Source: Fimbriimonadales bacterium
Lineage (GTDB): Bacteria; Armatimonadota; Fimbriimonadia; Fimbriimonadales; GBS-DC
Assembly (NCBI GenBank): GCA_025998675.1
Contig: AP024673.1
Location: forward strand, 2,178,562-2,242,561
Length of the DNA: 64,000 nt
Direction: 5' to 3'
Part shown: piece by piece, positions 11,346 to 13,491 of the stretch
Position numbering within the stretch: the first letter of the stretch is position 1
Layout of the letters: every line of letters starts with the position of its first letter
Notes under the pieces: generated by a model
Seen by the model: only the letters and a program-made list of their open reading frames with translations
Told to the model about the DNA's origin: nothing
Databases searched by the model: none
Made by a program: the position numbers and the translations under genes

Positions 11346-11405
11346 AGCGTTGGATTATACCCCTGCGCTCCACGCAGACGCTTGCAATTCCGTCGTTGCG
11401 GGGGG

Positions 11406-11700
11406 TATACTACACTGCCTTGCAGTGCGTGGCACGCGCTGCACGCGGAATCCCAAAGGGGGGAGGCGAGACGGGCGCTATGTCGCGGTCCAACTCGGTG
11501 TCCGAGAACGGTTTCCGCCGAACTACCGCGGAGATTGACCGATGCCGTTTTGGATCCACGCCACATAGGCGCTTGTGCCCCTCGGGGCGCGCTGGAAGCG
11601 TCTGGTACCGAAACCGACCGCGCAAAACCACCCAAATCGCCTCCGGGTTCGGGGTAGCCGCAGCTGCCCGCGAAACTCGGTCGTAGCGCACAGCTACGAG
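11406..11700 (+). ncRNA. Large structured leader RNA before speD (candidate riboswitch)
   Basis: A promoter (GG-TATACT, 11406-11411) opens a gene-free leader of about 310 bases before speD. Pairings visible by eye: a 5' hairpin (11421-11443, 10 pairs); a closing stem GGAGGCGA (11462-11469) with TCGCCTCC (11637-11644), prolonged outward by GAA-CCC (from 11448) with GGGTTC (11645-11650); a 13-pair stem with one bulge (11471-11483 with 11563-11576); stacked on it CGCGGT (11484-11489) with ACCGCG (11525-11530), enclosing CTCGG-TGT-CCGAG; a GC hairpin at 11577-11588; and a 3' hairpin TCGTAGC/GCTACGA (11681-11699) just before the ribosome site. The three-dimensional nesting is unlike chance. I match it to no riboswitch class I know. 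Its position suggests control of polyamine synthesis, perhaps by SAM or a polyamine, which is inference. Confidence 0.6.
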
Positions 11701-11728
11701 ACAGATACTCTTGTCAGGAGATACAACG

Positions 11729-12283
11729 ATGATGAAGGTTGGCATTCTGGGGCGCCGACCTGCGCGGTCGACGATGCGCGTCTGGGCGCAGTCGGTCTGG
11801 CGCAGCGCGCGCGATTGGATTGTACGGATGTTCGCACCGTCGGCTCGGCAGGCGGTTGTCTCGCCGCTGACGCAGGGGTTCGAGTACGAACTCGCCCCGC
11901 GCAGTCTGCGTCAGGACGACCAGCGCGCGCTGGGCACGCACCTGCTGGTGGAACTCTACGGCTGCAACGGGCGCACGCTGGAGCGCGTTTCGTATGTGGA
12001 AGACGCCCTCGTGCGCGCCGCCCACGAGTCGAACGCGCATATCGTGAGCCATTTCTTCCACGAGTTCGAACCGTATGGCGTGTCGGGCGTGGTGGTCATT
12101 GAGGAGTCGCACTTCACCATCCACACATGGCCCGAGCGACGCTACGCCGCGATTGACCTGTTCTTCTGCTCCGAGACGGTGGACGCAGAGCGCGCGCTGG
12201 AGGTGCTGCGCCGCGCGTTCGAGCCAGAGCAGATCGATGTGATGCTGATTCGGCGCGGGGTGCTGGAACGCACGCCGGGTTGA
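11729..12283 (+). CDS. speD: S-adenosylmethionine decarboxylase proenzyme
   Basis: A 184-residue AdoMet decarboxylase of the small bacterial class (SpeH/SpeD type). It makes decarboxylated SAM, the aminopropyl donor for spermidine. The self-cleavage and active-site motif EESHFTIHTWPE is present; the Ser becomes the pyruvoyl group. GTHLLVELYGCN and AHIVSHFFHEFEPYGVSG also match. An N-terminal extension of about 55 residues (basic, with RVWAQSVWRSARDWIV) precedes the usual start and is unexplained. AGGAG lies 8 bases before ATG 11729. The stop overlaps a possible TTG start of metX. Confidence 0.9.
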   Translation: MMKVGILGRRPARSTMRVWAQSVWRSARDWIVRMFAPSARQAVVSPLTQGFEYELAPRSLRQDDQRALGTHLLVELYGCNGRTLERVSYVEDALVRAAHESNAHIVSHFFHEFEPYGVSGVVVIEESHFTIHTWPERRYAAIDLFFCSETVDAERALEVLRRAFEPEQIDVMLIRRGVLERTPG

Positions 12284-12324
12284 CTGGCGAGCGCGTCGCG
12301 CCCCCGCGCGACCTGCAAGCAACG

Positions 12325-13491
12325 ATGGAACCGACGCTTGACGCCGCGCTGCGAGCGGACGCGCCCGCCTCAGAAGGCGAGGTGGGGCTGGTTGCGCCGC
12401 AGCGCGCCGTCTTCCCCAACGGTTTAGCACTGACGAACGGGCAGCGCCTCGCGCCCGTCGAAGCCGCCTACGAGACCTATGGCGCGCTCGCGCCCGACAA
12501 AAGCAATGTGATTCTACTGTGCCACGCCCTTTCGGGCGGCGCGCACGCCGCAGGCAGGCATCACCCCGACGAACGCAAGCCCGGCTGGTGGGACCTCTAC
12601 ATCGGTCCCAACAAAGCGTTGGATACGAACCGCTTTTTTATTATCTGTGTGAATGTGCTGGCAAGCCCCTACGGAACCACCTCGCCCCTCTCGATAGACC
12701 CCGCCACGGGCGAACCCTACCACCTGAACTTTCCCCCGATTCGCGTCGCGGACTGGGTGGAGCTGGAGCGCATGGTACTGGAATCGCTGGGCATCGAGCG
12801 GCTGTATGCGGTGGTGGGCGGCTCCACAGGCGGGATGCGGGCGTTCGAATGGGCGGTGCGCTACCCGGAGCGTGTGCGCAAGGCGCTGGTCATCGCCGCG
12901 CCCGCGCGCTCCAGCCCGATGGTGATTGCGCTCAACCACATTCAGCGGCAGACCATCCTGATGGGGCTGGAACACGGCGGGCTGGACGGCGCGAATCGCG
13001 GGCTGATGCTCGCGCGCATGCTGGCGCACATCTCTTACCTGTCGGAACACGCGCTCTGGAGCAAGTTCGGACGCGATACCACACCCGAAACCGAGTTCTG
13101 GAGCGTACTGTTCCAGGTGGAGAGCTACCTCGAATACAAGGCGACCACCTTCCTGCAGCGGTTTGACCCGTTCTGCTACCTGTATATCACCCGCGCGATG
13201 GACGCCTTCGATCTGGGCTATACTTATGGTGGCGGCGATTTGCGGCGGGCGATGGAGCGCGTGCAGGCGACGATGCGCTTTGTGAGCTTCACCTCCGACT
13301 GGCTCTTTCCCCCATCGGGGCAACAGGAGGCGGTGGAGGTTTTGCAGTCGCTGGGTAAACGCGCCGACCATGTGGTCATCGATAGCCCGTGGGGACACGA
13401 CTCGTTTCTGGTGGAGCGCGTGAAGCCGCAGTTGAAGCCGGTGCTGAAGGAGTTTCTGGAGCGCGATGCTGACGGAGTGGCTGGCGTTTGA
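12325..13491 (+). CDS. metX: Homoserine O-acetyltransferase
   Basis: An alpha/beta-hydrolase-fold acyltransferase (388 residues from ATG 12325; 403 from a TTG at 12280 that overlaps the speD stop). It activates homoserine for methionine synthesis. Landmarks: VILLCHALSGGAHAAG, GWWDLYIGPNKALDTNRFFIIC, nucleophile elbow GGSTGG (usually GGSMGG), and the C-terminal Asp (FTSDWLFPP) and His (GHDSFLVE) of the triad. The acyl donor (acetyl versus succinyl) is assigned from the family only. The partner O-acetylhomoserine sulfhydrylase is 31 kb away. It overlaps the next gene by 26 bases. Confidence 0.92.
   Translation: MEPTLDAALRADAPASEGEVGLVAPQRAVFPNGLALTNGQRLAPVEAAYETYGALAPDKSNVILLCHALSGGAHAAGRHHPDERKPGWWDLYIGPNKALDTNRFFIICVNVLASPYGTTSPLSIDPATGEPYHLNFPPIRVADWVELERMVLESLGIERLYAVVGGSTGGMRAFEWAVRYPERVRKALVIAAPARSSPMVIALNHIQRQTILMGLEHGGLDGANRGLMLARMLAHISYLSEHALWSKFGRDTTPETEFWSVLFQVESYLEYKATTFLQRFDPFCYLYITRAMDAFDLGYTYGGGDLRRAMERVQATMRFVSFTSDWLFPPSGQQEAVEVLQSLGKRADHVVIDSPWGHDSFLVERVKPQLKPVLKEFLERDADGVAGV

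Follow-up and report, generated by a model that had tools for sequence, protein, structure and literature searches.

The window analyzed here is a 64,000-nucleotide stretch of the 2.99-Mb genome of a Fimbriimonadales bacterium (genome G000). Within it, a rightward promoter at 11382-11411 is followed by ∼315 bases without a recognisable protein and then by speD and metX, and the neighbouring genes around this leader, a DUF2203 gene and a galactokinase-like gene, point leftward. The TTGCAA-18-TATACT promoter was the sole promoter-like site between 10500 and 13000 (0.3 expected), and the same scan of this interval found no terminator-like site. When the related leaders were aligned, TTGA or TTGC together with TATAAT or TATACT occurred at equivalent positions in 14 of 14, and transcription would start just past 11411 to give a speD-metX mRNA. 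No Pfam family was found in the three open reading frames scanned across 11412-11728, in agreement with the initial annotation, which had described a gene-free stretch directly behind a promoter. The open reading frame list opens the speD frame at TTG 11711; the start codon is ATG 11729, which is kept in relatives, and ∼70 residues of SpeD lie ahead of the catalytic domain. In 12 loci the sequence extends far enough to show metX, which adjoins speD in 11 of them (L013 has ∼815 bases without metX; L007 and L014 are cut off) and is probably its operon partner.

The speD leader, 11412-11728, is a real structured RNA. Its RNA strand folded at −143.5 kcal/mol, compared with −122.9±5.7 kcal/mol for shuffled sequences (z −3.6; 0 of 100 as good), and the opposite strand was less striking (z −2.1). 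The features of the locus, all on the forward strand, include two alternative sets of pairings, here called fold A and fold B:

11382..11411 (+), promoter TTGCAA-18-TATACT, position kept in relatives
11421..11443 (+), 5′ hairpin of 10 pairs; at 7 of these both partners differ in one or more relatives
11462..11469 (+), P1 5′ strand GGAGGCGA, partner 11637-11644; paired in 14 of 14 sequences and almost invariant
11470..11483 (+), 5′ strand of the fold A outer hairpin, GACGGGCGCUAUGU, partners 11599-11602 and 11563-11573
11484..11490 (+), CGCGGUC, fold B partner GACCGCG 11616-11622
11487..11493 (+), GGUCCAA, fold A partner UUGGAUC 11550-11556
11495..11499 (+), UCGGU, fold B partner ACCGA 11607-11611; 3 of 5 pairs changed on both sides
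11496..11498 (+), CGG, fold A partner CCG 11545-11547
11568..11602 (+), inner hairpins GGCGCUU/AAGCGUC (fold B) and GUGCCCC/GGGGCGC (both folds)
11615..11624 (+), putative switch strand CGACCGCGCA, partners 11484-11490 (fold B) or coding UGCGCGGUCG 11761-11770
11637..11644 (+), P1 3′ strand UCGCCUCC
11643..11715 (+), three hairpins before the ribosome site (11643-11680, 11681-11699, 11700-11715)
11716..11720 (+), Shine-Dalgarno AGGAG of speD, from sequence and alignment
11729..12283 (+), speD, AdoMet decarboxylase (Pfam AdoMet_dc, 1.2e-38; TIGR03330, 6e-40)
11737..11770 (+), conserved RNA segment in speD codons 3-14: hairpin GGUUGGC/GCCGACC (11737-11743/11754-11760), then UGCGCGGUCG (11761-11770)
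12280..13491 (+), metX, overlapping the end of speD (NF001209, 6.4e-124)

The 8-bp closing stem of the initial annotation is P1, with its strands 168 bases apart, and the nested helices and the hairpin just ahead of the ribosome site that it described are both present. Its 13-pair stem with a stacked 6-bp stem did not emerge as a single helix, the nearest equivalent being 11470-11483/11563-11602 enclosing 11487-11498/11545-11556, and its end coordinate of 11728 is too short, since conservation runs to ∼11770, within speD.

Searches with Rfam 15 assigned the leader to no family, as the initial annotation had proposed in calling the RNA unclassified: the only match in the window at gathering score was a tRNA elsewhere, a search of the leader at E up to 5 gave a single chance match at the speD start, and a scan of 8 of the 14 family loci gave no leader match at E up to 3. 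Low-scoring hits to sR53, mir-103, mraW, sR47, ncS025, L20_leader and Plastid-ycf2 all fell below gathering scores and were attributed to chance. SAM-I (RF00162) had no match in the window or in 8 of 8 whole genomes of the family. The RNA is not a known housekeeping RNA, as also anticipated, since RNase P (G000:C1:1115047) and tmRNA (G000:C1:2715499) both lie away from the leader; 6S RNA was not found in G000 and lay away from the leader in three of five genomes, one of these matches being above the cut-off.

Covariation and two mutually exclusive sets of pairings

Conservation was analyzed in two alignments, A1 (whole leader plus first codons) and A2 (core), each of 14 distinct sequences, nine of them from one genus. 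P1 and the hairpin GUGCCCC/GGGGCGC are common to both folds. Fold A forms locally as a long hairpin (GACG/CGUC, GGCGCUAUGU/ACAUAGGCGCU, GGUCCAA/UUGGAUC and CGG/CCG), and fold B closes the core (GGG/CCC, CGCGGUC/GACCGCG, UCGGU/ACCGA and GGCGCUU/AAGCGUC); the two exclude each other, as CGCGGUC and GGUCCAA overlap within 11484..11493. In fold A 95.9% of alignment cells pair and four pairs changed on both sides, in fold B 96.8% and five pairs (each 0 of 500 shuffles, slid 0-2); these counts are small and overlap in the shared hairpin, and we claim neither fold as proven alone. The GACGGGCGCUAUGU helix of fold A shows U-G to C-G and C-G to U-A or U-G changes in L013 and L014. Over the 5′ hairpin, the three that precede the ribosome site and one in the coding sequence, both partners had changed in a total of 18 pairs (0 of 500 shuffles), the three middle hairpins contributing, in order, such changes in 4 of 11, 3 of 7 and 3 of 4 pairs. 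These counts relative to shuffles argue that the RNA fold is under selection, and covariation across related leaders, which the initial annotation had proposed as its check, is thus present. The core is very highly conserved in sequence (alignment A2), with the most conserved leader bases far from the ribosome site. Many pairs of both folds are invariant and therefore uninformative, and in L007, a locus close to the end of its contig, each fold has pairs that are disrupted by substitutions.

Without the coding part, the computed energies of fold A and fold B were within 1.0 kcal/mol of each other in 7 of 14 sequences and within 3 kcal/mol in 11, as expected of a conformational switch, with an error of several kcal/mol to be allowed for nearest-neighbour energies that include no pseudoknots. 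The energies were not balanced in L007, L012 and L013. Exposure of the Shine-Dalgarno sequence showed no consistent computed difference between the folds in the 12 sequences other than L007 and L014. We also considered the CCUCC of the P1 strand UCGCCUCC as an anti-Shine-Dalgarno element, and rejected it because it was not better than other 20-mers (ranks 14-55 of 113-137).

Extension of the RNA into the speD coding sequence

The conserved RNA element extends into speD codons 1-14, where it is under synonymous constraint. Codons 3-14 read GGUUGGNAUNCUGGGG..CCGACCUGCGCGGUCG in nearly all relatives, and among codons with a conserved amino acid, compared over 13 of the 14 rows (all except L007), synonymous use was invariant at 6 of 9 tested codons in the first 15 and at 8 of 121 elsewhere (p = 3.6e-5). 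The frozen codons include some that are rare in neighbouring genes (GTT, 7 of 72 valines; CGA, 2 of 61 arginines; CCT, 3 of 46 prolines). Furthermore, the coding UGCGCGGUCG is an exact 10-nt complement of the core strand CGACCGCGCA; a complement this long arose in 0.6% of 20,000 synonymous resamplings and in 0 of 5,000 random 48-mers from neighbouring coding sequence. One strand occurs twice, as CGCGGUC at 11484 and as GCGCGGUC within speD, and its two copies are rivals for GACCGCGC at 11616.

The coding helix CGACCGCGCA/UGCGCGGUCG keeps 96.8% of alignment cells paired. It showed no compensatory change in the 14 sequences (219 of 500 shuffles reached its covariation score), and it is broken in L014, the most divergent relative. 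When the coding part was included in the energy comparison, made on the 13 sequences other than L014, the coding helix beat fold B in 12, by 0.6-8.5 kcal/mol. The initial annotation of the leader was thus partly supported: an unclassified, covarying leader linked to speD stands, and the extension into the coding region and the two mutually exclusive folds had been missed.

Distribution of the leader and the speD leaders of sister families

A DNA search found the leader in 14 of 201 genomes, all of one family (f1), where it occurs in 14 of 18 genomes and six genera; the four family genomes without it (68-85% complete) also had no speD match. speD lies directly downstream in 14 of 14 loci and DUF2203 is the upstream neighbour in only one of the 14. 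Because the upstream gene changes and speD is constant, the RNA appears to travel with speD. A covariance model, R1, built on the 153-191-nt core recovered these same 14 genomes, both in a search of 113 genomes from the order and in one of 291 from the phylum; a weak second R1 match, in G015 (E 0.06), lies inside a long open frame or protein gene and was rejected. When 84,980 species, each represented by one genome, were scanned with a strict pattern, 11 contigs were returned, all Armatimonadota, and the same kind of scan of viral contigs returned 0 matches. Spermidine synthase was present in 8 of 8 family genomes tested.

A further 32 genomes from the genus and order yielded speD in 23, with leaders that differ from the f1 type; 19 of these 23 loci were scanned with Rfam, and none had a match on the speD leader. 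One leader type of family f3 (L017-L021, L024-L027, L030, L063-L092; 38 f3 genomes) has the form GCGUCACGG..CCGUG ... UCGUCGGGUUUCUCGCGCAAGAGC..UCUUGUGUCUGCGCACGGUU..GUGAGG with a UUG start. Eleven such leaders were folded, and nine give a closed multi-branch structure, the last strand of which extends as far as the Shine-Dalgarno region; L021 forms separate hairpins instead. Two analyses of the eleven covered nine (all but L020 and L034) and seven (all but L020, L025, L027 and L034) of them. A natural short f3 leader of 64 nt (L034:1188-1251) consists of only the 5′ hairpin and the last strand, that is, the closing part. A model of the 3′ 70 nt of the f3 leader, R2, matched 39 of 291 phylum genomes from 14 genera in all, 38 of them f3 and one f5 (E 0.0099); speD was present at 30 of 30 fetched R2 loci, in 17 of which the leader was delimited by a text pattern. 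Like the f1 leader, the f3 leader is structured, tied to speD and equipped with a duplicate strand, as two CACGG copies can compete for the one CCGUG; the two leaders have no sequence or model similarity, and R1 finds none in f3 genomes.

Family f5 (five loci: L015, L016, L022, L023 and L036) has a speD leader of a third type, in which GGGGUUGGGUCGGCGCGUGGGCGCC or a variant of it precedes the start codon. A second f3 subgroup (L028, L029, L031-L033, L035, L037) has another leader, UUCGGUCGGGUUUCUCC .. GGGAAACUUGAUUG, which is perhaps related to the first f3 type. Neither inspection by eye nor model R1 found common ancestry of the f1, f3 and f5 leaders. The SpeD proteins also differ at their N-termini: those of f3 and f5 open with a hydrophobic run of ∼20 residues that precedes the catalytic domain (e.g. 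LANSLLLTSFLVLAAI) and whose composition suggests a membrane anchor, and those of f1 have a basic extension instead.

A candidate translational switch and its alternatives

The leader very probably regulates speD in cis. As in riboswitches, its core is conserved, covaries and lies in the 5′ leader of a metabolic gene, and we rate it as a cis-regulatory RNA of a known kind that forms a new class, without an entry in Rfam 15. Given the computed energies of the folds and the coding helix, we read the leader as bistable, and we lean somewhat toward a two-state translational switch on the speD-metX mRNA with a riboswitch-like build. The 5′ part may fold first into the long local hairpin of fold A (11470-11602). 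Next, the core's 3′ half (11607-11644) may invade this hairpin to give fold B, with P1, GGG/CCC, CGCGGUC/GACCGCG and UCGGU/ACCGA, or it may stay free, so that CGACCGCGCA captures speD codons 11-14 (UGCGCGGUCG). In the captured form, the adjoining hairpin would begin 8 nt past the A of the start codon AUG and the ribosome site would be enclosed in a loop; fold B would be ON and the coding-helix form OFF for translation. A signal of polyamine or SAM supply would set the balance, most likely spermidine or decarboxylated SAM acting as feedback. We infer that both folds form in cells, as well as the direction, the translational level and the signal of this control.

Several other explanations bear on what the leader responds to. 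The RNA might be bound by SpeD itself, a ribosomal protein or another RNA-binding protein, with no small-molecule ligand; this would suit the finding that the RNA occurs only at speD, with no credible second copy, which fits autoregulation better than a general SAM sensor, and the very high sequence conservation of the core. However, the core is far larger than usual protein operators and two competing folds would fit a ligand switch better, and we consider a protein-dependent leader unlikely. Control by a leader peptide has a precedent in eukaryotic AdoMetDC, where translation of an upstream open reading frame senses polyamines. Here AUG 11481-11483 could open a short polyamine-sensing peptide (MSRSN...): 13 of 14 leaders preserve the AUG and these first five codons, the frame ends after 7 codons in four, and L013 and L014 have an A-C mismatch in fold A that spares the AUG. 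The frame nevertheless ranges from 7 to 125 codons with no common stop and one leader of the 14 has no AUG, which makes such attenuation quite improbable; in addition, pairing explains the conserved bases and the preceding GGAGG is ∼13 nt away.

Very little probability attaches to an RNA thermometer, in which helices of the start region would melt with temperature to control speD, despite the hairpins around the ribosome site and the names of some related MAGs (HRbin15, JP3), which we take to be hot-spring sets, as the leader is very large, G+C-rich and sequence-conserved for a melting element and its most conserved bases are distant from the ribosome site. We likewise give scant credence to an independent structured RNA, an sRNA or a novel housekeeping RNA merely placed before speD. 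Its own promoter and strong fold would suit this explanation, but no terminator-like site was seen between 10500 and 13000, conservation continues into the speD codons, and the RNA always adjoins speD while the upstream gene varies, with RNase P and tmRNA encoded elsewhere.

Returning to the switch, a small-molecule riboswitch with a ligand predicted from gene context is plausible, although naming SAM, decarboxylated SAM or spermidine from that context is a guess. The restriction of the RNA to speD suggests a step-specific signal, either product feedback or SpeD, instead of general sensing of SAM. A more far-reaching proposal, which we offer tentatively and regard as doubtful, is that the leader represents a previously undescribed class of riboswitch, with spermidine or decarboxylated SAM as its ligand and an in-gene expression platform, and is one of at least three unrelated speD switches in sister families of one order; if true, RNA regulators of a single enzyme would have been replaced or invented repeatedly. 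Should three families of the order indeed carry three different structured speD leaders, the turnover of regulators at a single enzyme becomes open to study.

SAM riboswitch classes form mutually exclusive folds and occur before SAM and methionine genes such as metX; unlike them, this leader is found only at speD and has no Rfam match. Translational riboswitches such as that of E. coli thiC have an expression platform that reaches the start codon. The speD leader resembles this type in its alternative pairing around the translation start, and differs in that its competing strand lies in codons 11-14, frozen at synonymous sites. Our literature search, largely of sources outside subscription journals, recognised no earlier account of an RNA of this group in the leader of speD. 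Few natural RNAs sense polyamines, and their existence was disputed for a long time; the speD leader is a direct candidate for a second, unrelated class of them, with exact strands to test. The class for comparison is a SAM-I variant spermidine riboswitch described in 2023 (PMC10853860). Compared with it, the speD leader is larger, has a different fold, and lacks both SAM-I similarity and a detected terminator; both RNAs lead polyamine genes including speD, and feedback is the natural reading of each.
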